Shown: one piece after another, positions 4,639-27,681 of the stretch
Layout of the letters: the number at the start of each line of letters is the position of its first letter
How positions within the stretch are numbered: position 1 is the stretch's first letter
The notes under the pieces: generated by a model
What the model was told of the DNA's origin: nothing
Database searches by the model: none
Seen by the model: the letters and a program-made list of their open reading frames with translations, nothing else
From: Candidatus Polarisedimenticolaceae bacterium
Lineage (GTDB): Bacteria > Pseudomonadota > Gammaproteobacteria > Chromatiales > Chromatiaceae
DNA: 64,000 nt
Assembly: GCA_021647945.1 (NCBI GenBank)
Contig: JAKITT010000007.1
Location: forward strand, 1-64,000
Reading direction: 5' to 3'
Made by a program: the position numbers and the translations under genes

Positions 4639-4775
4639 ATCAGGCGCATTTGCCCGGTTTCCCCGTGGTATTAAACTGGAAATCAGGCATATTTGCCTGA
4701 TAAGCACCCCAATTCAGGCAACTTCGCCCTGATAATACGATAACGAACATGTTATCAGGCATATTCGCCAGATAA
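4639..4775. repeat. Four phased palindromes at the array edge
   Basis: Four imperfect palindromes close to ATCAGGCATATTTGCCTGAT begin near 4639, 4682, 4713 and 4754. The start-to-start spacings of 43, 31 and 41 bp are close to whole helical turns, so all would face one side of the helix. A related GGCGTTTTACGCC lies just before them (about 4613-4626). They may be operators of a DNA-binding protein, an accessory region of attI, or an extragenic palindrome cluster. Confidence 0.6.
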
Positions 4776-4875
4776 TTTACCAAAACACTATTCACATCCA
4801 TCAGCTGTGTCAACTTAAAAACCTGGCAAGACCCTGCTTATTGAAATGAGGGCTGTAGGGAGTAATAGCTCGTAG

Positions 4876-4902
4876 GGCGCAATAACTGAAAGGCATTGCG
4901 CC
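4876..4902. repeat. Extragenic hairpin
   Basis: GGCGCAAT and ATTGCGCC form perfect 8-bp arms around an 11-base loop. It lies downstream of the caspase gene on the minus strand but no T-run follows, so a terminator role is uncertain; it may be a REP-like palindrome. Apart from this, 4780-5026 shows nothing I can identify. Confidence 0.4.
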
Positions 4903-5026
4903 GAATGAATTTAATCATGGTACGCCAAAACCCCCTCATAACCACCCGCCCAGTCAACTGGATAAATGCCAGCTTTCACCAGATGATGAAAAGAGGTGGC
5001 GAAATCATCTACTCTGATTGAGCGGG

Positions 5027-7093
5027 TTACCCACTGCTTTTGACAAAGATAAACTCACCGCCACTATGGCCGGTAAATTTAATCGGTGCGTAGGTGGGTG
5101 ACTGCTTGAAACCGATTGAGGCGGCGTTCTTTTGTACCTGAGGGGAGACGTTAAGATAGATTTTATAGGCGTCAATCAGTCCATTTGCGTCCTCTAGTTG
5201 GTCAAGAAAGGCACGGGCAAATACGGAGTTGGCACCGCCGCCACTATCGAGCACTGGGGCGATTCCGCCTGAGGTGAGTACTGTGCGTGAGGCGGTCTTT
5301 GCCATTACTTTGAGCCATTTCTCCTGTTGTTTATCATCTAACTGGATATCCATCCGGGCCACAGAGCTGCGCGTCATGGAGCCTGAGTAGCAGGAGTCTG
5401 CAACCACAAGAATATGTTTTGCTGGCATGGTATTGAGCAGGTCTGAGATGGCGGAGTTGGAGATCCAATTGGCGCTATTCTCTTGCTCGGCATCGACCGG
5501 CAGCCAATAGCCTTGTAACGTGGTGACGTCACGCTCGCCATGCCCGGCGTAGTAGATCAGCAGATTATCCTTTTCTGTCAGCTTGCCTTTGACCTCATTC
5601 AGCGCGGAGAGAATGGTGTATCTATCGGCATTGCGAATAAATCGGGTATCAAAGCCAAACTGCTCGGTAAGAATTTTGGCCACACTCTGCGCATCATTGA
5701 TGGCGGTCTGTAACGGTGAGTAGTTCTGGTACTCATTGTTGCCGATGACGAGGGCGTAGTAGCGGCCAAAATCAACTGAGCCAGCAACACGGCTGAGGTG
5801 AGTGGCATCAACATCTCTTCTCTTCGCACGCTGCTCGGTGACGAGCATGAAAGAGAACTCGGCGCGCTGACCCGATTGGTCAATCACCTGAATCAGCACA
5901 CGTTTTTCACCCTCTGAGATGGTGACTGCGGCGTTAAACAGACCACTGCTATCGAGAGTGATTGCCTGCCCATTGATGGTGGCTGCTTTGAGCCCTGATG
6001 GGGCATCAATCCGTCCACTGATGACACGCACCTTACCCCCTGAGCGCACCCGTACTTTTGGTAACCCGCCTCGCGTTATGACGATAGAGGGATCAAATAC
6101 CTCGATGGATGGTCCAAGGGTATCCTCGGCGATTAAGAGGGTGGTTTGCTGGCTAACTTGTGAGGATTTTCTATCAAGCGTCCGCGTCATTTTTGCCGCA
6201 TCGTCGGCTAGTTGCGATAGACGGCTCTCCAACTGGGTAACTTTCTGCTGTTGTGCCGCATAGCTGCGTTTAAGCTCATTTATGCGAGGCTCTTCTGAGC
6301 TACTCTCCAGCTGGCGCTGCAAATTCACCAACTGCTGCTTGGATATGTCCAGTGCCACTCTACTCTCTGTCGAAGCCTGATAGGCCACCGTGAGAGAGGA
6401 TTTGAGTTGTTTGATATCCGCTGTGCGTCGGTTTATCTCCTGCCGCAGCAGTGCATTCTGCTCTTGCGCCAGCGAGGCGGCTTTAACCTCAATCGCGGCG
6501 GCGTAGTCAATTTCACTGCCATCAACCCCAGAGGCTTTACGATACCAATTGAAGGCAGTCAGGCTATTCTTCTTTACACCTAAACCCTTCTCATAGAGAT
6601 AACCTAGATTGATCTGAGCGCGTGAATAACCCTGCTCGGCGGCCTTGGTGTACCAGACAAAGGCTGTTTTGTAGTCACTTGGCAGACCTAGGCCCTTCTC
6701 ATAGATCTCGCCAACATAGGACTGCGCCTCGGCATCGCCCTGATGCGCCCGCTCCAGCCAAACATTGAGCGAGGTGCGATAATCGGCCCGATCAAATGCG
6801 ACATACTCCCCGCCACGAATTTCACACACCAGGGCGGTAGTTTTGATCGCCTTGCGCGCGGCAAGGTAGACCATCTTGGCCCCCAGTTTTCGCACCTGTG
6901 CGGGCAGCAGGCAGTCAACCGGCATGAGTTGATCAGCGGAGACTCTGCCCTGAATCTCATCCAGTGCGCTCCTCTCTACAGGGCTTGTAACGCAGCCACT
7001 CAGCCCACCTGACAGCGTAGCAATGAGGATAAGTCCACGTAGCCGTGGCCAAACCGAAGCCTCCGATTGATGTGATGTAGCGTGCATATTCAT
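5027..7093 (-). CDS. Lipoprotein with Sel1 repeats and a caspase (C14) domain
   Basis: A 688-residue predicted cysteine protease. The start ATG (7093) overlaps the kinase stop as ATGA, implying coupled translation. An N-terminal hydrophobic segment ends in the lipobox LSGC (about residue 34), so it is probably a membrane lipoprotein. Two Sel1-type repeats follow (about 115-185, with GDAEAQSYVGEIYEKGLG and its copy), then a coiled coil (about 200-310), a beta-rich region (about 330-420) and a caspase-like domain from about 440. The catalytic dyad is visible as His518 in YYAGHGE and Cys568 in ADSCYSG. Caspase-like peptidases of this family cleave after basic or acidic residues; the substrate is unknown. 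It is the last gene of the tpsB-tpsA-barrel-kinase operon, so the exoprotein or a cell-surface partner is a reasonable candidate target. Confidence 0.85.
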   Translation of the reverse strand: MNMHATSHQSEASVWPRLRGLILIATLSGGLSGCVTSPVERSALDEIQGRVSADQLMPVDCLLPAQVRKLGAKMVYLAARKAIKTTALVCEIRGGEYVAFDRADYRTSLNVWLERAHQGDAEAQSYVGEIYEKGLGLPSDYKTAFVWYTKAAEQGYSRAQINLGYLYEKGLGVKKNSLTAFNWYRKASGVDGSEIDYAAAIEVKAASLAQEQNALLRQEINRRTADIKQLKSSLTVAYQASTESRVALDISKQQLVNLQRQLESSSEEPRINELKRSYAAQQQKVTQLESRLSQLADDAAKMTRTLDRKSSQVSQQTTLLIAEDTLGPSIEVFDPSIVITRGGLPKVRVRSGGKVRVISGRIDAPSGLKAATINGQAITLDSSGLFNAAVTISEGEKRVLIQVIDQSGQRAEFSFMLVTEQRAKRRDVDATHLSRVAGSVDFGRYYALVIGNNEYQNYSPLQTAINDAQSVAKILTEQFGFDTRFIRNADRYTILSALNEVKGKLTEKDNLLIYYAGHGERDVTTLQGYWLPVDAEQENSANWISNSAISDLLNTMPAKHILVVADSCYSGSMTRSSVARMDIQLDDKQQEKWLKVMAKTASRTVLTSGGIAPVLDSGGGANSVFARAFLDQLEDANGLIDAYKIYLNVSPQVQKNAASIGFKQSPTYAPIKFTGHSGGEFIFVKSSG

Positions 7094-8613
7094 CCCTTCT
7101 CCAGCTTTTTTAATTGACCATCTAAGGTCTGTAATTTTTTATGATCTGCATAAATATTTAACCCTTCACTGACAAACTTCCTCGCCTGCTCAAGATCGCC
7201 CCCCTCTATCGACTGCATCGCGAGCTGAGCCAGTTGCTCAAGCAGCCCCTCTAGACCGGCAATTGCCTTGCGATCATAGGGGTGCAGTTCCAGTATCTTT
7301 TGGTATTCGTTATAAGCGTTGCCACCGGGTGGGCTAAGTAGCCGTCCAACCATCATGTGCACCTCTGCCACTTCGAGCATATCCCCCAGCTGTTGACTAA
7401 GTTGAGGTGTGACCTCGACCGCAGGCGGGGGATTTTCAAATAGACTGGCTTCAACAATGGTCGGGGGGCGAATGAGGAGATAACCTGCGCCCATCATCGC
7501 GACTAAAGCCAGTGCGAGGGATATCTGCTTCCATGGCTCCCGTCGTTTTGGCAACAAACCATCAAGAAAGTCACTGACACTGGTCACTCTCTCCTTTCGT
7601 GTTAGCGCCAAGCCTGACAGCAGCGCACGCCATTGTGGCTCCTTGAGGCTCTCAATACGAGAGGGCTGCATGCCCTGCGCATAGGCCTCTTCAGCACTAC
7701 GCCTGCGGTAGGGGTGTCTGCCCGTCAGTAGCTGATAGCAGATGCAGGCAAAGGCATAGATATCATCAGCGGGGTCTGGGGCCTCGCCGTTAAACATCTC
7801 AAGACTGGCATAGGATGGGGTGAGTGCAAATAGCGCCTCAACCTCTGCCGATTCGCTGCTATCCATGTGAATGGCGGGTGAAGTTGAGTCCGACTCAATC
7901 ATCGCCCGAGCGATGCCAAAATCGAGAATTTTAGCCCCTTCATCGGTTAAAAATATGTTACCGGGTTTCAGGTCCGAGTGGATGATGCTGTTTGCATGGG
8001 CATATTTAAGACCCGCCGCAATATCATTAATCATCGGCGCGACCTCTTCAATCTTGCTGACGCCATTTTGATTCGCTTTAAGGTAGTCCTCTAATGACTC
8101 GCCTAACATCAGCTCCATGGTCATAAAGACGGCATCACCATCACGGTCAAAATCATAGACGGTGATGATGTTTGGATGGGCCAGTTCCCGCGCTTTTTTG
8201 GTCTCCTGCTGCAACATCCGCAGCGCTTTTGGGTGTGACTTAAACGAGTCAGAGAGCAGCTTGATGGCGACCAGTGAGTGCTCTTCACCCACCCCCTCTT
8301 GAACTAGATCTCGCGCAGTAAAAACAACCCCCATACCGCCACGCCCCAACTCCTCAACCAGTTGAAACCGATTCTTGATCAGTGTGCCGGGCTGGAGGGT
8401 ATTATCTTGATCGTTGTCATGTGCGACGGTGGAGGCCAGCCGGGTAGCATCATCTGCCTCGGCTAGACTCTCCGCTTGGTGCTGCCGGGGCACCACCACT
8501 GTTTTTTCAACCGACACCGGCGTTTGGATACGAGTGGCTTCATCAGCGCCATCTGTGACGGGTAGCTGAATCCGTGTCAAAGCATCTTCCTGTTGATTCA
8601 CTCTCAGCCCCAC
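7090..8613 (-). CDS. Membrane-anchored Ser/Thr protein kinase with Thr-motif N-terminus
   Basis: A 507-residue eukaryote-like (Hanks-type) kinase. Visible motifs are the glycine loop GRGGMGVVF (90-98), VAIK with Lys118, HSDLKPGN (catalytic Asp214) and DFG (231-233). The usual Arg before Asp214 is Ser, making it a non-RD kinase. A transmembrane helix at about 357-378 is followed by an extracytoplasmic TPR-like helical region. The first 60 residues are disordered and carry repeated Thr motifs: TRIQLP (Thr13), TRIQTP (Thr27), KTVVVP (Thr38) and TRLAS (Thr57). Similar motifs occur in the T6SS kinase and TssL, so they may be phosphosites read by an FHA domain. The start is GTG at 8613; a GTG at 8601 is an alternative. 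The stop overlaps the next gene by 4 bp. Confidence 0.88.
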   Translation of the reverse strand: MGLRVNQQEDALTRIQLPVTDGADEATRIQTPVSVEKTVVVPRQHQAESLAEADDATRLASTVAHDNDQDNTLQPGTLIKNRFQLVEELGRGGMGVVFTARDLVQEGVGEEHSLVAIKLLSDSFKSHPKALRMLQQETKKARELAHPNIITVYDFDRDGDAVFMTMELMLGESLEDYLKANQNGVSKIEEVAPMINDIAAGLKYAHANSIIHSDLKPGNIFLTDEGAKILDFGIARAMIESDSTSPAIHMDSSESAEVEALFALTPSYASLEMFNGEAPDPADDIYAFACICYQLLTGRHPYRRRSAEEAYAQGMQPSRIESLKEPQWRALLSGLALTRKERVTSVSDFLDGLLPKRREPWKQISLALALVAMMGAGYLLIRPPTIVEASLFENPPPAVEVTPQLSQQLGDMLEVAEVHMMVGRLLSPPGGNAYNEYQKILELHPYDRKAIAGLEGLLEQLAQLAMQSIEGGDLEQARKFVSEGLNIYADHKKLQTLDGQLKKLEKG

Positions 8614-8716
8614 CCAGTAGCAACAAATAGAGTAAGCATCCCCGCCAGCATTCTGGTTGTAGGTTCGCCTTTAGGCGAGCAGCGGGGAGTTGAGCCATAG
8701 CCATTAATTGGGGTCA
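8614..8716. other. Short spacer with hairpin inside the operon
   Basis: This is the only real gap in the tpsB-to-caspase gene string. It contains GTTCGCC TTTA GGCGAGC (8663-8680). With no T-run after it on the minus strand it is not a convincing terminator; it may trim or attenuate transcription into the kinase and caspase genes. Confidence 0.35.
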
Positions 8717-10399
8717 TTAGAACTCAAATCGGCCACCCGCCGAAATAGTGTGTTGTGTCACATCATCTTGACCTAGCAGGGTCTCATAGTAGAGATAGGC
8801 GGTCTTGCCGCCACCTAGCGTGGAGGTGATGCCGGTGCCTAATTTGAAGTAATCCCTATCGGGGTCATCAGTACTCAGCTTAAATGTGGTGGCTGTCGGG
8901 TCATTAACAAAGGTGGCGTTGATATGGCGACTGTCATTATTAAATTCATGCGCCCACTCAAAACTCACATGGGGCACAAATACGCCTCGAGAGGTGCTGA
9001 TGGCGTAGCTGGCCCTACCACCGACCTGAGAGTTGAGAGAGGTGACACTCTGCCCCTCATAATTGAGTGCCAGGCCAACGGCACTCTCCTCGGTATAGCT
9101 ATCGATATCGGCCTGGATGTAGTTGATCCGGCCATACGGGCCAAAGCTAAAGGCATCTTTGTAGTAGTCATATCCACCGCCAACACTAAGCGAGTATTCG
9201 GTGCCGGTGGTATCACCCGAGGCTTCACCACTAAAGCTGCTAAAACTCATCTTTCTACTATTATCAAAGCGGTTCAAGCCAATGCTGGCAATCGCATCAA
9301 GGTAGATCGCTTCACTATGGTAGTAGGTTGAGTAGAATGAGAGGGTGTGGCCATTGACACTCATCGATCCACGGGAGTCCTGAAAATCGGTATCATTTCT
9401 GACATAACCCAGAGCTCCCCCTAAGATAAACTGATCGCTAAAACGGTAGTCCACACCGACCGTAAGCCCCTTTGTATTGAAATCAAATGCCAGCTCACTG
9501 CTTGAGGCATCTTTCTCCCCCAAGCTGATATTGCCATTGATGAAAAAGCCAAGCCGGCTAAAGAGGGCATTGCCGCCGCCATGCGTTGTCTCAGTGGCGT
9601 TTACAACAAGCGGGGCAAAGAGCGTCCCCGGCAACGTCAACCCTTGATAGTGCAAGGTCAGGCCCAATGTACTCACCCCCTGAACACCACTACGCAGAGC
9701 GGTCATCCGTGACGAGACATTATCAAACTGCTTAGTTGAGGCCTCAATAGAGGAGGTCCCTTGTGCAGGGGCCTGCTTGGGCAACAACTCCCGTATAGCG
9801 CTGACTTGCTCACTACTCGTTCCCGCGTTAATTGCACTACAGGCATCCAGTAGTGCCTGCTGCTGTGTAGTAATAGATTCGCCCATCTCATCTAGACTGG
9901 CACAAGCCGTATCCAATACATTGGCCAACGATTTTTCACTGGTGGTTAAGCCTGGCAGCATGGAGAAGAGTACAACAGAGGTTGTTAGATCGACGCTTCC
10001 TCCGATACAGCCAGCCCCTGAACAGCCAATCTGAAAGGTAAGAGGGTAGTCCGCTATGGCCGGTGGAGAGACCCATTCAAAGCTGTAAACCGCCGTACTG
10101 CCAGGGGTGAGTTCACCACAGTTATAGATACCATCTAGCATACAATTAGCCGATGTATTTCTAAAATTTGGGGTGATGTTCACCCCGGATAAAACAGTAA
10201 TATCTATAAAGGTAGTAGGTTCACTTACCGGATTACTCACCGTGACGGTATAGCTCACATTGTTCCCCACTACCACAGGGTTTTCTGGGTTTTGCACCAC
10301 ACTAACAAGCGTCACATTGGCAAAAGCCGAGGTGGAGAATAGAAGCGAGACAAGCACCGCTAAAGCAAACTGAACATACCGCTGTCGATTAATAATCAT
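8717..10399 (-). CDS. Outer-membrane beta-barrel protein (autotransporter-type C-terminus)
   Basis: A 560-residue protein starting 8 bp after the tpsA stop. A signal peptide (1-27, ending SAFA) precedes a DUF11-like Ig fold (about 30-115, with NPVVVGNNVSYTVTVSNP and a Cys pair), a helical linker (about 150-225) and a region of alternating beta strands from about 265 to the end. The last residues, ISAGGRFEF, end in Phe, the usual signature of a protein inserted by the BAM complex. The barrel length (~280-290 residues) fits an autotransporter beta-domain. No passenger larger than the Ig domain is present. Its place between the exoprotein and the kinase suggests surface anchoring or sensing of TpsA, which is an inference. 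Confidence 0.75.
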   Translation of the reverse strand: MIINRQRYVQFALAVLVSLLFSTSAFANVTLVSVVQNPENPVVVGNNVSYTVTVSNPVSEPTTFIDITVLSGVNITPNFRNTSANCMLDGIYNCGELTPGSTAVYSFEWVSPPAIADYPLTFQIGCSGAGCIGGSVDLTTSVVLFSMLPGLTTSEKSLANVLDTACASLDEMGESITTQQQALLDACSAINAGTSSEQVSAIRELLPKQAPAQGTSSIEASTKQFDNVSSRMTALRSGVQGVSTLGLTLHYQGLTLPGTLFAPLVVNATETTHGGGNALFSRLGFFINGNISLGEKDASSSELAFDFNTKGLTVGVDYRFSDQFILGGALGYVRNDTDFQDSRGSMSVNGHTLSFYSTYYHSEAIYLDAIASIGLNRFDNSRKMSFSSFSGEASGDTTGTEYSLSVGGGYDYYKDAFSFGPYGRINYIQADIDSYTEESAVGLALNYEGQSVTSLNSQVGGRASYAISTSRGVFVPHVSFEWAHEFNNDSRHINATFVNDPTATTFKLSTDDPDRDYFKLGTGITSTLGGGKTAYLYYETLLGQDDVTQHTISAGGRFEF

Positions 10400-10407
10400 T
10401 AAATAAT

Positions 10408-13400
10408 TTATCCTTGAATCGCTCTACTGGCCACTGTTACTGACCCATTATCTTGAATAGATGATAACTCTTCCTCATCATCCTCGTCCTCATCATCTTC
10501 CAACTGATCTTCTGATAGCAGCAGACCATCACCGACAATATTGAAGATTTTGGTCTCCGTCTTGAGCAGCGCGGAGTCGGCATCAACCACCTGTATATCC
10601 GCACTGGCCTGTACCTGACCCGCCAGTTCACGCTGTAGGCCGGCAACATCAACCAGCGAATTACCAAATGCAAAGTCTGAGAGGAAGCCACCACTCGTCT
10701 CGTATTGGCGCAGATCGTTGACAATCGTTGCGGCGCTGGAACCTAGACCACCAATATAGGCGGTGCTGCTAAAGGCAAGGTTGATCACACTAATACCTGA
10801 CTGAAAGGTCAGTGGCGCACCTGAGGTACCAATGGCGCCACTAAATGCGTAGATATTCGCCGTGCCTGTTCCGGTGATATTGACTGCATCAGTCGTCGCT
10901 AAAACATTCCCATTCTGAGACGTCACATTGATATCTGCTGCGCCAGCATTTAGTTGGGCAACGGTAACATTTTGACTGCCGGTATAGACTATTTTATTGC
11001 CCGAAGTGGTGGTGCTAGCGCCTTTGTTCATCGTTATAGCACCCACATCGGCAAAAACTCTGACCTCGCCATCTATTGAGATGGCACCCGATTGGGTTAT
11101 TGAGCCTGATTGGCTCTGTAGCCAAAGATCGCCACTCCCCGTCACCGAGGAGATATTCATTGCGCCCGCATTGACCACTTGCATATCACCCGACCCACTG
11201 TTTGAAAGTGAGAGGTTCGAGACATTGGTTTCCAGCTTATCAGCGACTGTGCCAATCCCTTGCGTCGCGGTTAAGCTGAGGGAGTCAGCAGTGATGTTAT
11301 TGGCTGCACCATTGCTATCGGTTATCCCCAAACCGACCGAAAGGTTGACGTTTTGGCCTGTTGCATCAATATTGTTGAGCGCTAAACTTGCCGCATTCAG
11401 ATCCAGCTGACCACTCACTGTAGAGTCATTCACGATTAGCGCGCCGCTATTGCTAATTGATGTCGCCGCTGTGTTTAGGCTTAAGTTTGAGACCGTTGTT
11501 ACAAGCCCCGTCACCGCATTATTACCGACAATATTCAACGTCTCAGCGGTAATTGTTCCACCGCTAATCTCTCCACCAATGGTTAGGTTAACGGTCTGAC
11601 CTGTTGCATTGAGGTTATTAAATGCGATGGCTGCATCATTGGAGAGATCCAATTGACCTGTCAGGGTGGAGTCATTGAGTGTGAGCGCACCACTGTTGCT
11701 GATTGAGGTTGCCGCAGTGGTTAGTGCCAAGCTGCTGACACTTGTTTCAATATCTGTTACCGCACCATTGCCGGTAATGACGAGATTATTGGCAGTGATA
11801 TTGACGGTGGTGTCAGCACCACTCGCATCCGCATTGCCATCGGTGATGGCACCACCGGCATTTAGCTCAACATCGCCACTGCCCGCATTGACGGTGTTTA
11901 ATGCCAACGCAGCACTCTGATCGATATAGATACCCCCTATACCGTTGGAGGCCGATGCCGTTAGCGCACCCGTTACCACGGTATCAATGGCATCCACCCC
12001 GGTCGCACCGATCGATGCACCAGAGCCATTCGCGATCAACATCAGATCATAGGCCGTTAGTGCACCTGCTCCAGCTGTTATATCACCTGCAGTCACCGTC
12101 AGAATTAGGCTGTCCGTCGCATTGCCAAGATCACCATCAATCACCCAACTGGTGGCGGTGAGATCGACCGTCTGAGCGCTGCCTGCCGTGATCAAGGCCA
12201 CCGCTGAGGTGTTCAGCGCAATGCTATTTACGACGCTGATATTGCCTGCTGCATCCACACCCGCAGAGGTCAGATTGAGAGCGGTTGCTGCGGTATTGAT
12301 GGCACTATCACCGCCGATATCAGTTGCCGAATCTAGGCTCAAGGCATTGGCGGTCAATCTGCCTGTACCGCCCTCTATATCGCCTGTCGTCGCCGTCAGC
12401 TTCAGGTTGTCTGTTGCGCTGCCCAGATCACCACCGACCACCCAACTGGTCGCCGTGAGTTCTACCGTCTGGGCGCTAGCGTCTGTGACCAGCGTGACGG
12501 TGAAGGTATCCAGGGAGCCTGTATCAACCACCCTGATGTCACCTGCTGCATCGACACCTGCAGTGGTCAGATTGAGAGAGGTTGCTGTGGTATCAACCGC
12601 TATGCCACCACCAATATCGGTGGCTGCATTCAAGCTCAGGGCATTGGCTGTCAGTCTGCCTGCACCGCCCTCTATATCGCCTGTCGTTGCTGTCAGCGTC
12701 AGGCTGTCTGTCGCATTGCCAAAATTGCTATCAACCACCCAACTGGCTGCGCTGAGATCTACCGTCTGAGCACTGCCTGCCGTGATCAGGGCCACTGCTG
12801 AGATGTTTAGCGCACCACTATCTACAACGCTGATGTTGCCCGCTGCATCTGCACCCGCAGTGGTCAGACTCAAAGTGGTCGCAGAGGTATTGATGGCTGT
12901 ACCGCCGCCGATATCAGTGGCGGCATCCAGGCTCAAAGCATTGGCGGTCAATCTGCCTGCACCGCCCTCTATATCCCCTGTTGTCGCTCTCAGCGTCAGG
13001 TTATCCGTTGCATCGCCTAGATTGCCACCGACCACCCAGCTGGCCGCCGTGAGCTCTACCGCCTGTACGGTAGCGTCTGTCACCAGCGTGACAGTGGAGG
13101 TGTTGAGGGAAGCTACATCCACAATCGTGATGTTGCCCGCTGCACCGCTACCGGCAGTGGTTAGATTCAACCCGCCCGCACGGGTCACTACAGCGCTGCC
13201 GATACCGATGCCACCGGCTGCACTCAGGGTGACATTACCGGTAGTGATGACCGTTCCACCCCCACCATCAATGTCACCCGCGGTTGATGTGATAGAGACG
13301 GGACTGCCTGTTGCTTGGCTAGAGAGATTTTCTGAGAGGGTAATAGTGCCGGTCGATTCGAGTGTAATGGCACCGGCCGTAGTCACTATTCCGGTGACAC

Positions 13401-16400: not shown

Positions 16401-19400
16401 TGCCATCAATCACACTACCGCTGGTGGAGATGATACCCACCGCCGAGGTGGAGGTACTTGTGGTGGCCAATGCACCCAGCGTGATATTGCCATCCGCGCT
16501 TAGAGTGAGCGTGCCTACCCCGCTATCTATATTGATAGCGCCATCTGTGCCACCGTGAGTCATGGCAATGACACCACCGGTGTTGCCAACAGCATTGTCT
16601 GCTGTCAACGTGATGTTACCGCCGTTGCTGGAGAGATCCGCCTCGCCCGCGCCATCCTGGCCCACCAAAATATCATGGTTGGCGGTGATGGTAATGGTGC
16701 CAGCACTCACCCGCCCTGCCGCGATCTGGCCATCAATGATAATATCCATGCCGGTGGCAATAGCGGCCCCTTTAGAGGTGATGGTGACATTGGCATCGGC
16801 AACAACTTGGTTCGTATCTGTGGTGCTATCGGCATCAATTTGAACGCCCGCACCCGCAATGGCACCCGCATCTGCGATATCGGAACCGGAGATCGTTACA
16901 TTATCAACCGAATCAACCAGCCCATCCGCCTTTATCCAGACACCACCAACACCATTATTGCTGGTGTCTGCTATGAGGGTAATGTCACGATCTGAGGCCG
17001 TGCCTTCCACTGTCTCTTGAGTCTGTAGAACTGCATTGATGATGATGTCACGGTCGGCACTCAATGAGATCGCTGTATCTGGGTCGATCAGATCTGAATT
17101 TACAATGGTGTCCTGGCTCGTACCCGTCAGATTAATGTCTCCTCTGCCTAGTGTTGGCGAAACATTCAACGTCACACCATCGACATTAAGAGTACTTCCC
17201 CCCCCATTACCTGTATCAATCACCTCATTCACGGTAAAAACACCGGCATTATCTATGATGATATTGCCACCGTTGTTGCTGCCACTGTCACCTGTGGCTA
17301 CGCCCGTTCCACCCGCTGCAATGGTGAGACTGCCGCCTCCTGTCTGGTTGAAGATGATGGTAGGGGTGCCTGTAACAGTGGAGAGGCTCATGATATCGAC
17401 GGCTGATGCTGAGAGATTATCTAGATTAATATCTCCACCCACGGAGTCCGCCGTAATGGTCTGGCTAGCCAACTCGATAGCGTTGGCTGCACCGATGCCT
17501 GTGGCGGCATTGAGAAACACCACCGCCGCAGTGATGTCGGTAACGCCATCAGCACCCGCCGTGGCATCTTCAATAGCACCTGTGCTGCGAAGTTCCACAG
17601 TACCGCTCGCCGCATCAACGGATGCCACCGACATATCACCCGTCTCACTGATAAAGATACCCCCAGTACCGCTGCTTGCAGTGGCGAACAAGGTGCCACT
17701 CAGGGTGGTGTTGATGTCACTGCCTACGCCACTGGCACCGATGGCTGCATTAGTCGCATCCACCGTCAAAGTGAGGTTACCGGCCGTCACATCCGAGCTG
17801 TTATCGGTGATATTTCCAGTAATTGCACGCAGGTTCAGGTCATTTGCTGCGACATTAACGGTTCCCAAACCGATGCCATTGGCCTCAGTCAGGTAGAGAT
17901 CACCACTGGTGGTGGTGACGGCCAGATTATCTACGCTCAGGTTCAGGGCATCCGTCGCTGACGTGCCTATCCCTGTGGCGTCAATTATGGTCAGCGTTGT
18001 CGCTGTAATATCCGTGGTGGTATCGACACCCACAACATCTGTGATCGCACCCTCGGCATCCAAGCTCACGCTGGCATCACTGACCACTGCATCACCGGCC
18101 ACTGCAAAACCAAAACTATCTGAGTAGATGGTCAGCGGGGCATTGATTGTTACCGCCGCACCTCCGGCGTCGATTAGCGTTGCACCGTTGATGGTCGCTG
18201 AGCCAAATTCAATCGCACCTGAACTATCATCCAACGCCGCCAGATCCGTGGCATCAAGGCCCAAAGTGCCTGCTGCACCGGTGCCGGTGACATCCGCCGC
18301 CGTACCTATCTTCAACTGGGTGCCATTCTCTACAGCACGCAAACTCAATGTCGTGCCACCCTTGATCAGGTCACCACCCGCTGAGTTCAGATCCATCTCA
18401 TCCGCAACCAATGCTACGCTGCTCTCACCGGTGATTGAGGTGTTTGCATCCACCGTTAGAAGATTGTCGGCCGCTAGCGTCAGTGTCACGTTGTTACCGA
18501 CGATATCCGCTGCAGCCGTGGTGCCCATCGTGCCGGTGGTGGTGATCTCTACATCGCCGCCACTGGTCACATCTGCATCAATGGCTCCGATGATCAGATC
18601 ACCCGTCTGATTGATGAAGATACCGCCCGTGCTATTGTTGGCACTGGCCGTTAGGCTGCCGCTTAGTGCGGTATTAATCTCAGCGCCACTGCCACCTATG
18701 GCCGCGCTCGCTGCATTGGCAATTAAGTTCAAGTCACCGGCGGTAATGTTTGAGCCATTATCTAGCAAACTACCTGCGGTAGCGGTGAGCGACACCGTGC
18801 CGGCCCCCGCACCGATTGTCGTCACGTTGATATCACCCGTCTCTGTGGTTAGGCCGAAGTTCAGATTGCCCACCGCTGAAACATCCGTAACATCCACATC
18901 GGCGCCGTTATCCGCCAGTGTGAAGGTCATGCTGCCGTCCGATAGCAGATAGGTGGAATTTGTCGCCGTTGATGGGTTCACCGTCAAGGTCAGATCGGTC
19001 AACACCGTATCTGTCACCACCTCAAAGCTGCCATCGGTATCGATGGTCAGATTTGAGGTGCCACTCAGCTCCAGATCTGCCGTAGCACCAACACCCGATG
19101 CAGCCTTCAGACTCACTGTCGCTGCGGTGATATCTGTCACCGCATCTACATTGGCCGTCGCATCATCAATGCTGGTCACCGCCGTCAGTTCAACAGCGGT
19201 GCTGCCTGCATCAAGACTCGCCACACTGATGTCACCGACTGTCTCATTAACGAAGATACCACCCGTGCCGGTGTTGGCACTGGCGCTCAGGTCTCCTGTC
19301 AACGCAACATCCAGTGCAGCCACACTGGCTCCACCAATCGCCTGATTATTACCATCAGCCGTCAGTGTCAGGTCGCTCGCCGTAATATCGACCAGCGTAT

Positions 19401-21618
19401 CTGATGCCGATTCCGTGATCGAACCTGCTGTTGAGGTGAGGCTTACTGTGCCGGTGCCAGCGTCAATGGTTGTGATGCTGATATCACCGGTTGTGGCGGT
19501 ATAACTGAAGCTTGAAACATTTTGGTTGAGATCGACACTGTTGAGCAGATGCCCACTATTAATATCCACCGCATCGCCATTGAAGTAGCTGATGTCGATA
19601 TTGCCAGAGGTGGCATCAGCCACGGTGATATTGGTTGAGGCGATGGTGGCTGCCACCAGCTCATCAACCCTGATATCTCCCGCCCCGGTATCATTGATAG
19701 TCAGGGTCGTTGCCCCATCTATATCGAGCGTATTGGTCGCGCCGATGGCATCGGCAGTGAGATCTACCGCGCCTGTTGTTTTGATCTCTGCGGTGGCATT
19801 TGCTGCTGTTGTGATGCTGCCACCCGCATTGAGGGTGACGCTGCCTGAACCTGTTGTGATACCACCATCCAAGGCACTAAGGGCGATATTGCCACTCGCT
19901 TCAAGATTGACTGCTCCAGAGGTTCCGCCGCCGTTGCCTGTGGTGTTAAAGCCACCAGCGGTGAGATCTCCGCCTTGAGCCTGCAAGGTGATCGCACCAC
20001 CCTCGGTGCGGATAACATCATTTGTATCGGCAAAGGTGATCGCTCCGCCGGTGGAGGTGATGGTCAAACTACCTGTGGTTAGATCCAGCGTCACCAGATC
20101 ATTGCTGGTAATGGTTCCATCCGCTGTACCATCAACATCATTGATGGTGATGAGCCCCGTTGCTTCGAGCGTAATCGCGGTAGTTGCCGCTAAACTATCA
20201 ATGGCTCCCCAAGAGACCGTGTTACCACCAGAATCGGCAACCCCTTCTAGGATCTCACCGACAGTGGCCGTCGTCGTTAACTCATCATCATGATCAACAC
20301 TTGTATTGGTCTCATCGGTGATGGTCAATGTGGCCGGATCTAACAGCAGAGTGCCTACATCACCATTCGCAGCGCTCGTATCGACATCACCACGGAAAAG
20401 AAGCATCTCCTTGCCTGAGACCTCAACAGAGCCACCACTACCCGACTCAGCGCCACCCTTGGCACTGATATCACCATAATAAGCTGCGATCTCATCTGAC
20501 CAAACGACAACCTTGCCCCCATCACCATTTATGATGGCATCCGCTTTGATGCGACTATTGGCGCTGATATAGGTGCCTTTTGCATTTTTAATATCGGCGT
20601 TGTTGCCTTGGTAATCACCACCGATAAGCACTTCACCACCGCCCAAATCGCCAGAGGCATCAACGCTTGAGTTATCAAACAGGCCAACCTGATCACCGAG
20701 AATGTGGATTGTGCCACCCTCCCCTTCAGCAGATGTGGCACTTACATAACTATCACCCGTGAACAGGGTTGTGTCGTTAGCGATAATCTCAATCGTGCCG
20801 CCGTTGCCAGCAAAACCATCAGCCCTAATGGTGCCGCTATGCTCAACGTTGTCGCCCATAAGAGTGATGGAGCCACCCTGGCTACCTGAAGCGTCGAGGG
20901 TGCCACTATTGGCAACTGAACCACCGATGCCGATTAGGCGAATTTCTCCGCCTGAGTCATCAATACTGCCCGCTTTGATGATGCCGCTATTGTTCACCAC
21001 ACTGCCACTGAGGAAGACCGTCCCCCCCGTCTCAGCAGAGATAATTCCTTCGTTGATCACCTGACCTGCTTCCGCATAATCAGAGAAGATTTCGCTATAG
21101 TCACCCCGCATGAAGCGTGAGGCACTTATCTCTTTCGCTACAGCAAAAAAGCTGCTGACATTAATTACAGCAGTTTTACCAAAAATAAAGCCATTAGGGT
21201 TGGCCAGAAAGACCTTGCCGTTAGCCTCTATGCGACCAAAAATCTGGCTGGGGTTCTGATCAAGAATACGGTTGAGGACAGCAGAGGAGGCGTCGGGCTG
21301 CTCAAAGCGCACCAGCTCTTGTCTATCGACATTGAAGCTCTGCCACTCAACCACCATGCTGTTGCTATTTTGTTGGATCAGCGTGGTAGTGGTATTGGGT
21401 GTAGAGATCGTGCCTGAACCATCGACAATATTGCCCCCTTCAGGCGCTGCAAGTAGCATTCCCGGCTGTAGCAGTAGCATGCTGGCTGGCAGCAGCAGTG
21501 CCCTTCGAATAACGCGAGTCAGCTCTTTCAGCACAAACTGTGGCTGTTGATTCGGCTGGCTAGCCGCCTGTTTGATAACAGATTTCCGTCTTCTAATGCT
21601 GTTACGCATATCACCCAT
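10408..21618 (-). CDS. Giant filamentous haemagglutinin-like TpsA exoprotein
   Basis: A 3736-residue secreted beta-helix protein, the substrate of the adjacent TpsB. The N-terminus has a long charged leader with an extended signal (RRALLLPASMLLLQPGMLLAA). The TPS secretion domain follows (about 60-200), with NSMVVEWQSFNV and the variant ANPNGF in place of NPNGI. The remainder is low-complexity beta-helix built from Asp/Thr/Ala/Gly-rich units (ATTGDI, NLTTAG and similar), with very few Lys or aromatic residues. Long repeats occupy roughly residues 2000-3200. The C-terminus has a very acidic patch (EDDEDEDDEEEL) and ends SRAIQG, with no recognised toxin domain, anchor or Cys pair. It is probably an adhesin or biofilm/surface protein rather than a contact-dependent toxin. 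It lies 17 bp downstream of tpsB. Confidence 0.88.
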   Translation of the reverse strand: MGDMRNSIRRRKSVIKQAASQPNQQPQFVLKELTRVIRRALLLPASMLLLQPGMLLAAPEGGNIVDGSGTISTPNTTTTLIQQNSNSMVVEWQSFNVDRQELVRFEQPDASSAVLNRILDQNPSQIFGRIEANGKVFLANPNGFIFGKTAVINVSSFFAVAKEISASRFMRGDYSEIFSDYAEAGQVINEGIISAETGGTVFLSGSVVNNSGIIKAGSIDDSGGEIRLIGIGGSVANSGTLDASGSQGGSITLMGDNVEHSGTIRADGFAGNGGTIEIIANDTTLFTGDSYVSATSAEGEGGTIHILGDQVGLFDNSSVDASGDLGGGEVLIGGDYQGNNADIKNAKGTYISANSRIKADAIINGDGGKVVVWSDEIAAYYGDISAKGGAESGSGGSVEVSGKEMLLFRGDVDTSAANGDVGTLLLDPATLTITDETNTSVDHDDELTTTATVGEILEGVADSGGNTVSWGAIDSLAATTAITLEATGLITINDVDGTADGTITSNDLVTLDLTTGSLTITSTGGAITFADTNDVIRTEGGAITLQAQGGDLTAGGFNTTGNGGGTSGAVNLEASGNIALSALDGGITTGSGSVTLNAGGSITTAANATAEIKTTGAVDLTADAIGATNTLDIDGATTLTINDTGAGDIRVDELVAATIASTNITVADATSGNIDISYFNGDAVDINSGHLLNSVDLNQNVSSFSYTATTGDISITTIDAGTGTVSLTSTAGSITESASDTLVDITASDLTLTADGNNQAIGGASVAALDVALTGDLSASANTGTGGIFVNETVGDISVASLDAGSTAVELTAVTSIDDATANVDAVTDITAATVSLKAASGVGATADLELSGTSNLTIDTDGSFEVVTDTVLTDLTLTVNPSTATNSTYLLSDGSMTFTLADNGADVDVTDVSAVGNLNFGLTTETGDINVTTIGAGAGTVSLTATAGSLLDNGSNITAGDLNLIANAASAAIGGSGAEINTALSGSLTASANNSTGGIFINQTGDLIIGAIDADVTSGGDVEITTTGTMGTTAAADIVGNNVTLTLAADNLLTVDANTSITGESSVALVADEMDLNSAGGDLIKGGTTLSLRAVENGTQLKIGTAADVTGTGAAGTLGLDATDLAALDDSSGAIEFGSATINGATLIDAGGAAVTINAPLTIYSDSFGFAVAGDAVVSDASVSLDAEGAITDVVGVDTTTDITATTLTIIDATGIGTSATDALNLSVDNLAVTTTSGDLYLTEANGIGLGTVNVAANDLNLRAITGNITDNSSDVTAGNLTLTVDATNAAIGASGVGSDINTTLSGTLFATASSGTGGIFISETGDMSVASVDAASGTVELRSTGAIEDATAGADGVTDITAAVVFLNAATGIGAANAIELASQTITADSVGGDINLDNLSASAVDIMSLSTVTGTPTIIFNQTGGGSLTIAAGGTGVATGDSGSNNGGNIIIDNAGVFTVNEVIDTGNGGGSTLNVDGVTLNVSPTLGRGDINLTGTSQDTIVNSDLIDPDTAISLSADRDIIINAVLQTQETVEGTASDRDITLIADTSNNGVGGVWIKADGLVDSVDNVTISGSDIADAGAIAGAGVQIDADSTTDTNQVVADANVTITSKGAAIATGMDIIIDGQIAAGRVSAGTITITANHDILVGQDGAGEADLSSNGGNITLTADNAVGNTGGVIAMTHGGTDGAINIDSGVGTLTLSADGNITLGALATTSTSTSAVGIISTSGSVIDGTSGGATNITASTGGSQITINVGGDIGAVTNIFDETGYVPITTTANDLDLTSGSVIAVSDTASPTLTNLNANSGGAGTLLFTATGDIDASTTTGLDAADTIGLVSTSGTLTLTNGIIAAHLRLEGTDIIRFGGGNLDIDATTALLFKSATDESITISTGQFDGTSGGVLDVTNDSAALELVDLDGDNVAIAQTGPGAITITSTGGSITVTDDVTATSTGSITLFADSAASGDLTVNDVITTDSGDITLRTDNDVVFGAGGDVSSTSGSVEVTADFDGGGVASGALTMADGTIINAGSGTIDLNADGDIALGSLQTSSSSATAVTIDSSEGGIMDAGDSDVDIVADSGTLVINAVTGVGNGNALETTIDALDVDNSTSGNIEIVESNGLTINKLAQGSAGNISLSSITGTVMVAAGQFGVTTVGTGTISLLADGGAAGDLVVNDTINSDSGTITLRADDDVTLGADGDVSSTSGNIEVTADFDSGGAASGALTMADGTIINAGSGTIDLNADEDIALGSLQTSSASVTAVTIDSTEGGVSDAGDSDGDIVAARGTIVINVATGIGVADAIETTAGALNLTTTGSGAAGDIAIADSAALNTSAVTLTTAATTQTIDLTAAAWVVDTALDVGTDNLALRATAGDISDGTAGSGGIALSAATIALDATGAIDATIVTGILAAQSTAAGDIFIENTGALDVNSVAGVSGILTTASAITLESTGSITVSENITSQATGSPVTITSTGGDIIGGGGSVISTGNVTLNAAGGIGIGSALATSAGALNLTTTGIDAAGNITLVDSSAMNTSALTITTAGTAQTVDLTAASWVVGGNLGNATDNLSLTASTGGIEGDAGRLTANQLSLDAATDIGGGTAVNTTATSLNLTTGGADAAGNITVLNSAALNAAAVSLLTAGSNQTIDLSATAWTIDAALNVGTDNLVLRATSGGISDGIVGSGGSALTAATIALDATGGIDVTTVTGTLAAASTSAGDIFIENTGALDVNSVAGVTGIVTTAGAITLESTGTITLSENLSSQATGSPVSITSTAGDIDGGGGTVITTGNVTLSAAGGIGIGSAVVTRAGGLNLTTAGSGAAGNITIVDVASLNTSTVTLVTDATVQAVELTAASWVVGGNLGDATDNLTLRATTGDIEGGAGRLTANALSLDAATDIGGGTAINTSATTLSLTTAGADAAGNISVVDSGALNISAVALITAGSAQTVDLSAASWVVDSNFGNATDSLTLTATTGDIEGGAGRLTANALSLNAATDIGGGIAVDTTATSLNLTTAGVDAAGDIRVVDTGSLDTFTVTLVTDASAQTVELTATSWVVGGDLGSATDNLKLTATTGDIEGGTGRLTANALSLDSATDIGGDSAINTAATALNLTSAGVDAAGNISVVNSIALNTSAVALITAGSAQTVDLTATSWVIDGDLGNATDSLILTVTAGDITAGAGALTAYDLMLIANGSGASIGATGVDAIDTVVTGALTASASNGIGGIYIDQSAALALNTVNAGSGDVELNAGGAITDGNADASGADTTVNITANNLVITGNGAVTDIETSVSSLALTTAATSISNSGALTLNDSTLTGQLDLSNDAAIAFNNLNATGQTVNLTIGGEISGGTITAETLNIVGNNAVTGLVTTVSNLSLNTAATSISNSGALIVNDSTVSGQLDLNAASLALNNIDATGQNVNLSVGLGITDSNGAANNITADSLSLTATQGIGTVADKLETNVSNLSLSNSGSGDMQVVNAGAMNISSVTGSGDLWLQSQSGSITQSGAISIDGEVRVFADVGAITMNKGASTTTSGNKIVYTGSQNVTVAQLNAGAADINVTSQNGNVLATTDAVNITGTGTANIYAFSGAIGTSGAPLTFQSGISVINLAFSSTAYIGGLGSSAATIVNDLRQYETSGGFLSDFAFGNSLVDVAGLQRELAGQVQASADIQVVDADSALLKTETKIFNIVGDGLLLSEDQLEDDEDEDDEEELSSIQDNGSVTVASRAIQG
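12040..14690 (-). repeat. Higher-order tandem repeats within tpsA
   Basis: Modules of about 95-100 codons recur with the order NLTT-G-AAGNI, ALNTSAV, QTVDLTAASWVV, NATDNL-L-ATTGDIEGG, AGRLTANALSLDAATDIGGG. At least seven are recognisable. A larger unit of about 320 codons, which adds a segment with DIFIENTGALDVNSVAG, is itself duplicated. A second pair of repeats (ALTMADGTIINAGSGTIDL) lies at about 14.73-15.03 and 15.34-15.62 kb. Boundaries are approximate. Copies have diverged at the DNA level, yet length could still vary by recombination. Confidence 0.7.
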
Positions 21619-21635
21619 TCCTGTTCCCTAACGAT

Positions 21636-23513
21636 CTAGAAAAGTTTCCACTGCATACTCATAAAGAACTGTGGATCCTCTTCATTACTCGGCTCCACAT
21701 CACCCAAAGGTTTCGCCAGCGTCATCTTCACCATCAATGCCGGGGTCTCGAAATTGAGGCCGAACCCCGCACCGCTCAGTTCGGCAAACTCCTCTTCATT
21801 ACCTAGTGGATTATTGCGCTGTCCAGCGGCATGATCAACAAACAGCGAGAAGCTCAATGCCTGTTCCCAACTGACCTGGCGACCCGCAGATAACCACTTC
21901 GGCACCATCTCATCTGTCAAAAATGGCAGCGTAAAAATCCAGTCAGCGGAGACAAAATAGCCACTATCACGTAGCACTTCTGCCGTCGGATAGGCCCTAA
22001 CACTGTCGGGCCCACCGAGTGACATCTGCTCCAGTGAGACCAGCAGGTCATCTGAGTACTGACCGTTCAGGCGCAACGAGAGTAGCGTGCCCCAGAAAAA
22101 CCGCTGTCTACGGCTCAACTCCACCACCAATTTGTCAAATTCGGCACCGGCCTGCTCCCCCTCTTCGCCCTGACGGCTTGAGTCGGGGTCATCACGGGCC
22201 TCCATTGAGCCGAGCAGATCACCAAAACCGTGAGAGTAGGTGGCGACAAAAAGCGTCTGACTGGAACCGCTGCTGGCCAGTAACCACTCATCGGAAAAGA
22301 GACCGCCCGCATTCAGATCAAGCACGGTCAGGCGGTCTATTGCCACCGTTTCCCCCGCCTGTCGGGTCACCGCCTCTTTGACATTGAGGCGACTCCCCAA
22401 CATCAAACGCTCGCGGAAAGTCTGTTTGGCTATCCAACCTAGTGAGAGATAGCTCTGCTCACTAAAGCCATCGATTTCAAGCTCTTTAAGCTCCTGACCC
22501 AATACAAATTGGTTGCCACTATGACCGATACCGAATTTTAGATCTGATGAGAAAACCGGCCGCTCATAGCTGATCGAATAGAAGTCACTGTTATCTGGAT
22601 TAAAGTTGTTCATCCATGCCACCGACAGTTGGTCAGCGGCATCCGTTGGGTCATTGAGATCGATATCTATCCGGGTACGATAGACACCTGAATAGTCCGA
22701 ACCAGAATTGTCTGCCGAGAGGGCAATATTGAAGGGGTACTTCTCTTCAGAGACATCCAACTCAAGGTTAGTCAGCCCGGTCTGCTCGCCTGGTAGAAAG
22801 GTCAATTGCGCCTTCCGCTCCGCAAACCGTAAGCCAGGATAGTCCCACACATTGAGTAGCGCTTGGGTGATCTCATCACGGCGTACCGTTCGGCCAACCA
22901 TGCCCCTAAACGGTGTCAGCAGTGTGTAATCAAAATAGCGCTCATTGCCTTTGGTTGTAATCTTACCGAGCCGTCCCTGCAACACATGAATAAAAACCGT
23001 TTGATCCTTAACGGTTTGTGGCGGCAAAAAAGCGGCATCCAGAATCAGCTCACGTTGGCGGAAAAACTGCGTAACACGAGTGGCAACATCCTCTAGATCA
23101 AAGATGGTAAATTGGTTCTCATATTGAGTGAGCAGCGTGCCAAGCAACAACTCAAGATCAGGGTTTTCCAACGGCACTGCACAAAACTCATCAACACACT
23201 CACCCTCAACCTCTGCTTTGGGGATCAAACGCTTAACAACAAAACGTTTGATATTAACGGTTTTCTCATCCGGCAGACGCGCCCGCTTCTCCGGCACATC
23301 AAAATCGCTAAAGGGGGAGGTCTCCGCATCATCAGAGAGTGCTGGCATCTCATAACCAGAGAAAGGGCTCTGTAGTCCTCGAGGCTGCCCCGCATCGGGT
23401 ATGGTTGCTGAGTACCCGATTGAGGGTATCGCAAGAGAGATAATTAACAGCAAGTTCCCAATAGATAGGGATCGTTGACTTGCCTTGTTGCTATTCATGA
23501 TGTGCCGACCCAT
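21636..23513 (-). CDS. Two-partner secretion outer-membrane transporter (TpsB, ShlB/FhaC family)
   Basis: A 625-residue Omp85-family transporter that recognises the TPS domain of TpsA in the periplasm and passes it across the outer membrane. A signal peptide (about 1-36, ending GYSA) is followed by a proline-rich linker and POTRA-type domains (about 75-240, with ENQFTIFDLEDVATRVTQFFRQR). The 16-strand barrel extends to the C-terminal WKLF. The conserved loop motif appears as GGPDSVRAYPT, equivalent to the VRGY motif of the family. Start 23513 is used; an internal ATG at 23498 is possible, and neither has a strong ribosome binding site. It is the first gene of the minus-strand operon and diverges from the T6SS genes across 23514-24002. 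Confidence 0.88.
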   Translation of the reverse strand: MGRHIMNSNKASQRSLSIGNLLLIISLAIPSIGYSATIPDAGQPRGLQSPFSGYEMPALSDDAETSPFSDFDVPEKRARLPDEKTVNIKRFVVKRLIPKAEVEGECVDEFCAVPLENPDLELLLGTLLTQYENQFTIFDLEDVATRVTQFFRQRELILDAAFLPPQTVKDQTVFIHVLQGRLGKITTKGNERYFDYTLLTPFRGMVGRTVRRDEITQALLNVWDYPGLRFAERKAQLTFLPGEQTGLTNLELDVSEEKYPFNIALSADNSGSDYSGVYRTRIDIDLNDPTDAADQLSVAWMNNFNPDNSDFYSISYERPVFSSDLKFGIGHSGNQFVLGQELKELEIDGFSEQSYLSLGWIAKQTFRERLMLGSRLNVKEAVTRQAGETVAIDRLTVLDLNAGGLFSDEWLLASSGSSQTLFVATYSHGFGDLLGSMEARDDPDSSRQGEEGEQAGAEFDKLVVELSRRQRFFWGTLLSLRLNGQYSDDLLVSLEQMSLGGPDSVRAYPTAEVLRDSGYFVSADWIFTLPFLTDEMVPKWLSAGRQVSWEQALSFSLFVDHAAGQRNNPLGNEEEFAELSGAGFGLNFETPALMVKMTLAKPLGDVEPSNEEDPQFFMSMQWKLF

Positions 23514-23932: not shown

Positions 23933-24002
23933 ACTAGAATTGATAATATTTCAGCAGTTACGGAAAATAGAGCGCAACAGGCCACCGACAAAACCACTTA
24001 AA

Positions 24003-25738: not shown

Positions 25739-26329
25739 ATGTTATTTCACAAGGAAAATAGAATAAAAAATACTCTTTACGCACTTCCACTCATCATGCT
25801 CATGCTGAGTGGCTGTATGACAAAAGAGATTCCACCCACCTATCTAACAATGATGTTTCAAGCCTCCTATGAGTTGAACCCCAATTCAGATGGCAAACCC
25901 TCACCTATCATTGTCCGACTCTATGAGTTGAAAAAGGAGGCACTATTTCAAGATAGTGACTTTTTTGACCTCTATGATAATGATCTAAAAATATTGGCCA
26001 CCGACCTGATCAGCCGCAATGAGCTGGAATTTCGCCCGGGCGAAGATCGCACCATCAAATATGAGCTCGATCCAGCCACCCGTTTTATCGCGCTAATCGC
26101 CGCCTACCGTGACCTGGACAGTGCTCAATGGCGCGTCTCAACCAAGGTTGCTCAACAGATGACCAACACCTTTATTGTCAATCTGGAGCGCGAAAAAATC
26201 ACCCTCTCGGGAACACCCACCCCGATTGAAGAGGAGATGCCTGAAATTAAAGCACCTGAAGCTAAAGTGCCTGAAGTTAAGGTACCTGAGATCCAAATAC
26301 CAGACACCCCAACTGTTGAAATCAAATAA
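25739..26329 (+). CDS. tssJ: T6SS outer-membrane lipoprotein TssJ
   Basis: A 196-residue lipoprotein that anchors the TssLM inner-membrane complex to the outer membrane. The signal and lipobox (MLMLSGC, Cys near residue 26) are clear. The transthyretin-like core carries the family features PSPIIVRLYELK, FFDLYDNDLKILATDL and RYELDPATRFIALIAAYRD-like segments. AGGAGAGAG precedes the start. The protein is longer than usual: a C-terminal tail of about 25 residues has four EIKAPE / EAKVPE / EVKVPE / EIQIP repeats, which may reach toward peptidoglycan or TssM. It starts the tssJKLM operon. Confidence 0.88.
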   Translation: MLFHKENRIKNTLYALPLIMLMLSGCMTKEIPPTYLTMMFQASYELNPNSDGKPSPIIVRLYELKKEALFQDSDFFDLYDNDLKILATDLISRNELEFRPGEDRTIKYELDPATRFIALIAAYRDLDSAQWRVSTKVAQQMTNTFIVNLEREKITLSGTPTPIEEEMPEIKAPEAKVPEVKVPEIQIPDTPTVEIK

Positions 26330-26341
26330 CGGAATTAAGGC

Positions 26342-27679: not shown

Positions 27680-27681
27680 CA

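Follow-up and report, generated by a model that had tools for sequence, protein, structure and literature searches.

A barrel-kinase-caspase gene module associated with type VI secretion lies beside a two-partner secretion locus in a Sedimenticola-like bacterium

The window analysed here, 64,000 nucleotides of contig JAKITT010000007.1 from a Candidatus Polarisedimenticolaceae bacterium whose nearest named relatives are Sedimenticola metagenome-assembled genomes (MAGs), contains five co-directional minus-strand open reading frames (ORFs). They encode a two-partner secretion (TPS) pair, TpsB and TpsA, an autotransporter barrel (BARREL), a PpkA-type Ser/Thr kinase (KIN) and a lipoprotein with a caspase domain (CASP). 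A preliminary description had taken all five for an extended TPS operon. The ORFs and their spacing are as it gave them, with gaps of 17 bp (tpsB-tpsA), 8 bp (tpsA-barrel) and 103 bp (barrel-kinase) and a 4-bp ATGA overlap between kinase and caspase. Comparison with relatives suggests a different reading, to which we assign a probability of about 0.5: two independently conserved units, tpsBA and an envelope-sensing PpkA-type module with a protease, lie by a type VI secretion system (T6SS), and the module would control the T6SS or another FHA output. The key context of the locus is indeed a T6SS gene cluster (23940-39349), which lies outside the region first described, starts about 430 bp past tpsB and runs in the opposite direction, in the order TagH(FHA)-TssJ-TssK-TssL-TssM-TagF-PppA-PpkA(FGE). 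TssC is encoded elsewhere in the genome (C118).

Judged by sequence comparison, the conserved unit is a barrel-kinase-caspase module, often extended by a hydrolase. Among the best 80 caspase relatives (loci) of a genome-wide scan, which were then annotated, a KIN gene lies within 5 kb or less of the caspase gene in 62, a BARREL gene in 48 and a gene for an alpha/beta-hydrolase lipoprotein in 42, with the motif GHSGG in 36 of 41 hydrolases. The hydrolase gene is part of many modules but is not in the operon of the window. No TpsA or TpsB gene was found near the caspase gene in any of the 80 loci. The kinase was likewise searched in 92 relatives, and the neighbourhoods were then read. The proposal that kinase and caspase form a signalling and proteolysis unit is borne out to the extent that the two are neighbours in most relatives, share the 4-bp overlap in nine loci and have conserved catalytic residues; Cys568 and Asp214, which had been named as catalytic, show no variation across 81 and 63 relatives, respectively. 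The same neighbourhoods, with kinase, caspase and barrel genes together in dozens of genomes from a wide range of genera, make it very unlikely that unrelated genes were brought together by chance, through rearrangement next to an integron array, even though an integron-like cassette array begins directly after the caspase gene and integron integrase genes are present in the genome. From the sequences compared, the only junction that looks recent is the one between the TPS genes and the module.

The module is associated with T6SS both across genomes and within loci. Co-occurrence was assessed in 369 genomes of the class and 57 of the family, with p-values that ignore relatedness. In the class sample, TssK is encoded by 14 of the 25 genomes with the CLLP-Sel1-caspase architecture of CASP, against 57 of the 344 others (odds ratio (OR) 6.4, p=2e-5), and caspases of another architecture, which match the profile just partly, show no link (TssK in 4/17). 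The family sample gives 10/13 with the architecture and 10/44 without it (p=6e-4). Physically, at least two T6SS core genes lie within 10 kb of 12 of the 80 caspase loci, and of 8 of the 37 with full flanks, where about 1% would be expected. These linked loci have several gene orders and belong to Sedimenticola-like, Hahella and Methylomonas lineages; in Methylomonas the module genes lie within the T6SS gene cluster or directly abut it. Three other members of the family (G022, G024 and G038) have, in place of the caspase gene, one whose product, about 350-360 residues long, is a Sel1 protein that corresponds to the N-terminal half alone. The genes for this caspase-less lipoprotein, the barrel, the hydrolase and a large kinase, which in G024 is FGE-type, stand together as a block just upstream of tagH and tssJ-tssM. 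The caspase therefore seems to be an optional extension at the C-terminus of a Sel1 protein associated with T6SS.

Within the window's genus, a second genome (G001, 91% complete) carries orthologous BARREL, KIN and CASP genes, whose products are 64, 63 and 73% identical to those of the window. The G001 module runs directly into TagH-TssJ-TssK-TssL-TssM-TagF/PppA in one direction, with tagH directly after the caspase gene and TPS absent there, and KIN is the sole PpkA-like kinase of the G001 genome at E<=1e-40. The G001 T6SS (TssK 49%, TssM 41% identical) is less closely related to that of the window than is the T6SS of G036, from another genus (70% and 62%). The module has therefore been joined to two different T6SSs within one genus, and to TPS once. 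Elsewhere it lies at or near T6SS genes in three genomes (G008, G011 and G013) and without T6SS in view in two (G043 and G046), and in G025 it is on a different contig from a tpsBA-T6SS pair. Its partner is more often a T6SS than a TPS locus, and TPS as an obligatory partner is ruled out by the absence of TPS genes from the 80 caspase loci together with G001 and G025.

A T6SS is not an obligatory partner either, nor its universal output, since 19 of the 50 module genomes lack TssK; these include Arenimonas isolates, and some are incomplete MAGs. They favour a rival explanation, in which the genes form a general envelope-stress module without a fixed output and proximity to T6SS reflects shared kinase ancestry and a surface-attached, competing lifestyle. 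Consistent with this, kinase-PP2C-(barrel)-caspase sets occur without T6SS in Arenimonas and Silanimonas, and the G025 copy (L019) lies directly downstream of rpoE-rseA-rseB-rseC-degP-like genes, an arrangement that, with gene identities read from sequence, suggests an envelope-stress context. We nevertheless consider this explanation rather unlikely, because an association with T6SS is seen for this caspase architecture but for no other caspases, and because the genes lie in or directly next to the T6SS cluster in G001, Methylomonas, G022, G024 and G038. Several other points weigh against a T6SS-controlling module. Of the 48 loci with BARREL, just 25 have it on the strand of CASP, and beyond the family of the window a minority of loci are physically linked to T6SS genes. 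The association counts are phylogenetically non-independent, with many of the genomes fragmented MAGs. The T6SS of the window has a second PpkA, so KIN may be dispensable there. Lastly, the membrane in which CASP sits (outer or inner) is predicted solely from the +2 residue.

CASP carries the lipobox LSGC with Cys34 as the lipidated position, and the Val at +2 predicts an outer membrane location. A conserved CLLP domain (Cys61, Cys90), the two Sel1 repeats, long helices (198-264 and 268-324), an Ig-like beta domain (329-419) and the C14 caspase domain (about 440-687) complete the protein. The C14 fold and the His-Cys dyad are evident in the profile match, the alignment and a structure model alike. 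The model (AlphaFold2, 38 sequences, mean pLDDT 80.7) shows a Sel1 block, the two long helices, the Ig-like domain and the caspase domain, the last of which matches MALT1 with a Z of 24.3 over 206 residues. CASP thus shares with the MALT1 paracaspase and metacaspases a caspase fold, a His-Cys dyad and an Ig-like domain adjoining the protease, but it is a bacterial envelope lipoprotein with Sel1 repeats and a coiled coil, and has no death domain. Asp467 of CASP is aligned with an Asp of MALT1 that, together with the Asp preceding the catalytic Cys, forms the Arg pocket of that enzyme. CASP has acidic residues at both positions (D467, and D566 before the Cys), and from these it is predicted to cut after Arg or Lys.

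Caspases and Ser/Thr kinases are frequent components of prokaryotic conflict systems, which raises the possibility of a cell-suicide or anti-phage module with the caspase as killing effector. PADLOC indeed returned generic caspase and kinase matches for these genes. These were to generic domains alone and not to a whole component set, and a known anti-phage system was rejected on that ground. We find the conflict explanation scarcely probable: the lipoprotein signal and conserved periplasmic-type cysteines of CASP, and its partnership with an outer-membrane barrel and a second lipoprotein, imply that CASP faces the envelope, away from cytoplasmic targets, and the gene set contains no nucleotide or nucleic-acid sensor.

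Read from its sequence, KIN has a cytoplasmic kinase domain (84-354), one hydrophobic segment (about 365-383) and a C-terminal part of about 124 residues predicted to be periplasmic. Its catalytic residues are intact, as expected of the PpkA of the threonine phosphorylation pathway (TPP; PpkA/PppA/FHA) of T6SS: H212, D214, N219 and D231 are conserved in 63/63 relatives and K118 in 62/63. The N-terminal extension carries repeated D/E-x-T-R/Q/V-I/L/V motifs, of which there are 66 in 38 relatives against 4.3±2.0 in shuffles, and which may be phosphorylated. A similar motif, DRTVIRPSPGGR, stands at the N-terminus of TssL, and the PpkA of the window's T6SS cluster has one in its own tail (DKTQIAP...). 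In Agrobacterium, PpkA-dependent phosphorylation of TssL Thr14 and its binding by Fha are established (PMC3953482). In a kinase tree, which has open forks and some long branches, KIN is nested with T6SS- and TPS-linked PpkAs; it groups with its G001 and G025 counterparts (100/99), the PpkA of the window's T6SS groups with those of G036 and G046, and a distinct clade (100/96), separate from KIN, holds ten TPS-linked PpkAs. BARREL has its beta-domain at 286-539, preceded by the invariant Cys166 and Cys187, and ends in the aromatic ...GGRFEF; with a signal peptide, read by eye, and a passenger, it has the features of a type Va autotransporter.

The TPS pair itself is conventional. TpsB and TpsA match the ShlB and TIGR01901 profiles (Table 1) and are separated by the 17-bp gap, TpsA has an NPXG-type TPS secretion domain, and POTRA_2 in TpsB (8.2e-5) falls slightly under the cut-off. 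No domain was found by a Pfam search of TpsA. The C-terminal motif of TpsA, KIFNIVGDGLLL, has a close match in the TpsA of G036; in the form IFNIVGxG, the C-terminal motif was considered as a marker of PpkA-linked TPS and discarded, being present solely in the window and G036. As in FhaB/FhaC systems, the domains are standard; unlike in these, tpsBA is divergent from tagH and a T6SS cluster and is followed by a signalling module. All four strong TpsB matches in the family sample (window, G025, G036 and G046) are divergent from tagH. Among the 38 TpsB loci that were read, 11 adjoin T6SS genes and 11 a PpkA-PppA pair (22/38 in total), several of the TpsB-PpkA-PppA loci with a cyclase-FHA type protein in between (one Pfam-confirmed). 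A recurrent arrangement has tpsBA divergent from a PppA-PpkA pair (L203, L210, L211, L221, L226, L229 and others), in many cases together with a gene of the cyclase-FHA type and mostly in genomes without TssK, and these loci could possibly encode a TPS-specific Ser/Thr phosphorylation system. Another TpsB type adjoins VgrG-DUF2169-PAAR effector islands in four genomes (L165 on C99 of G001, L212, L232 and L233), three of the islands with an Hcp-like gene.

These data bear on the view that the five genes constitute an extended TPS system, in which the sensing, release or processing of TpsA would fall to barrel, kinase and caspase. In its favour, the genes share a strand with gaps of only 8 and 17 bp around tpsA, kinase and caspase follow tpsA in both family loci with a visible 3' side (window and G036), and the TpsB branch is often beside PpkA/PppA or T6SS genes. 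Against it stand the absence of TPS genes from the 80 caspase loci, a TPS-caspase co-occurrence across the 369 genomes that is not significant (4/25, p=0.12), the two units on different contigs in G025, the G001 module without adjacent TPS, and the membership of the PpkA at TPS loci in a different clade from KIN. Nor is the gene order conserved: among the 57 family genomes, tpsA-kinase-caspase occurs just in the window and G036, and even these two differ in order and caspase subtype. The G036 caspase is 37% identical to that of the window and is without the Sel1/lipoprotein part, and G036 yielded no barrel gene. At the G036 locus (L024/L025), tpsA appears to be divided over several frames, with an intact tpsB on one side and the caspase gene on the other, either as a broken gene or through assembly errors. 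In this non-lipoprotein subtype a gene for a CsgG/LpoB-like secreted protein follows the kinase gene (G013, L022:8509-9735; G036, a 408-aa gene).

We therefore consider an extended TPS system unlikely. The kinase-caspase pairs of relatives are mostly away from tpsBA, which the preliminary description had itself named as an outcome at odds with its operon, and nothing points to processing of TpsA. A weak version of a TPS-caspase link survives, since kinase and caspase genes lie 3' of tpsA in both visible loci. The idea of a link between TPS and signalling fares better through PpkA, PppA and FHA than through the caspase: because the tpsBA branch is recurrently beside PpkA, PP2C and FHA genes, a link to Ser/Thr phosphorylation may be real, and these neighbours, with the non-significant co-occurrence, make TPS a partner of PpkA/PppA/FHA rather than of the caspase. 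As for joint transcription, promoter-like (17 vs 18.9±4.8) and terminator-like (17 vs 14.8±4.1) consensus sites in the region are no more frequent than chance. In the barrel-kinase gap, where a strong promoter or terminator would have spoken against one operon, a stem is predicted, without a U tract. A single transcription unit of all five genes is therefore possible. No RNA family was found by Rfam in positions 1-40000 of the window.

Table 1. Positions of the genes and sites discussed, in window coordinates
Feature	Position	Strand	Details
CASP, lipoprotein with caspase domain	5027..7093	-	688 aa; Peptidase_C14 2.4e-25 and two Sel1 repeats
Catalytic Cys568 codon (DSCYSG) of CASP	5390..5392	-	invariant in 81/81 relatives
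Catalytic His518 codon (YAGHGE) of CASP	5540..5542	-	invariant in 81/81 relatives
KIN, PpkA-type Ser/Thr kinase	7090..8613	-	507 aa, GTG start; Pkinase 5e-40
KIN N-terminal extension with repeated D/E-x-T-R/Q/V-I/L/V motifs	8389..8613	-	candidate FHA-binding phosphothreonine sites
BARREL, short-passenger autotransporter	8717..10399	-	560 aa; Autotransporter beta-domain PF03797 7.8e-61
TpsA exoprotein	10408..21618	-	3736 aa; TPS signal domain TIGR01901 9.7e-24
TpsB transporter, POTRA and FhaC/ShlB barrel	21636..23513	-	625 aa; ShlB 8.7e-25
TagH-type FHA protein, divergent from tpsB	23940..25439	+	
T6SS membrane/baseplate genes tssJ, tssK, tssL, tssM	25739..32585	+	
tagF and pppA (PP2C phosphatase; PppA 33367-34113)	32570..34113	+	
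Second PpkA-type kinase, C-terminal FGE-sulfatase (TagR-like) domain	34120..38736	+	

On the flanks, the T6SS PpkA with its FGE-sulfatase domain resembles a PpkA-TagR fusion. Directly after the caspase gene begins a probable integron cassette array (positions 1-5000), with attC-like 27-nt inverted repeats (at about 603-668, 1217-1278 and 2833-2898), repeated 300-nt units, small lipoprotein ORFs and ORFs of unknown type. A small secreted ORF of an eight-residue repeat (SIGPGGGQ; 4237-4707, minus strand) adjoins the caspase gene. Integron integrase genes lie on two other contigs, C145 (with an internal TGA) and C86 (partial).

The conservation of the module, its intact active sites, the lipoprotein signal and the association with T6SS can all be read from sequence; how the module might work is conjecture built on them. 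Its parts would be an autotransporter barrel in the outer membrane, whose passenger varies, an envelope (probably outer-membrane) Sel1-coiled-coil-caspase lipoprotein, an inner-membrane PpkA-type kinase and, often, the alpha/beta-hydrolase lipoprotein. Barrel and lipoprotein(s) may serve as surface sensors of contact or damage, whereupon the caspase would cleave a periplasmic partner such as a barrel plug, the kinase tail or another lipoprotein. Cleavage would turn the kinase on, which would then phosphorylate threonines of its own N-terminal tail and of TssL/TagH. Binding by the FHA protein TagH would promote T6SS assembly, and PppA would reset the system. In genomes without T6SS the module would have to drive a different output. 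Surface sensing, the cleavage target, the direction of the signal with kinase activation, and the T6SS output are all inferred.

ExoR of Agrobacterium is a Sel1-repeat protein of the periplasm, and its proteolysis lifts the repression of T6SS. It differs from CASP in being a substrate rather than a protease and in acting via a two-component system. ExoR and ChvG/ChvI are T6SS regulators in that organism (PMC10482370). The closest comparison is with the TPP (PpkA-PppA-Fha1 with TagQRST of the P. aeruginosa H1-T6SS; RtkS-PpkA of Serratia), and in Pseudomonas the T6SS is triggered through an outer-membrane lipoprotein, a periplasmic protein and PpkA (TagQRST; PMC10482370). Like this pathway, the module has a membrane kinase of the PpkA type that extends into the periplasm, neighbouring PP2C and FHA genes (in the window those of PppA and TagH, within one cluster), an envelope lipoprotein that is probably the sensor, and a gene block inside T6SS loci. 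Unlike it, the module has a sensor side in which a Sel1-caspase lipoprotein and a hydrolase lipoprotein accompany an autotransporter barrel, with a protease built in, and it is not strictly dependent on T6SS; no TagS/TagT-like ABC transporter is among the annotated genes of the window, although no search was aimed at them. In Acinetobacter, TslA is a periplasmic T6SS-cluster protein that, with OmpA, links cell-cell contact to T6SS assembly (PMC10564176, PMC10482370); compared by description, TslA (about 25 kDa) is too small for the whole CASP architecture.

We regard the module as a modified form of the T6SS phosphorylation pathway already known, and there is a fair chance that it is a class of its own. 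That class, which we put forward only tentatively, would be a new form of envelope signalling in which a lipoprotein-borne caspase-type protease, an autotransporter barrel and a PpkA-like kinase relay a signal from the surface into the cell, with proteolysis preceding phosphorylation, chiefly a T6SS trigger with other outputs that include a TPS adhesin. Titles and abstracts of open-licence PMC papers describe neither the module nor the TPS-PpkA/T6SS linkage, weak evidence by its nature, and the module is apparently both widespread and undescribed in the literature. It probably helps decide when the T6SS fires.

The sensing of contact or damage by T6SS is known in few species (TagQRST, RtkS, TslA/OmpA), and the module, if our reading is correct, would add a new sensor input that contains a caspase protease. 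To our knowledge, most prokaryotic caspases have no known function, and a periplasmic bacterial caspase would here have a testable role other than in death. The module is found in many gammaproteobacterial genera, including the culturable Methylomonas, Hahella, Marinobacter and Arenimonas. Finally, since TPS exoprotein genes recur next to those of PpkA, PppA and FHA proteins, one type of phosphorylation switch may serve both adhesin secretion and T6SS.

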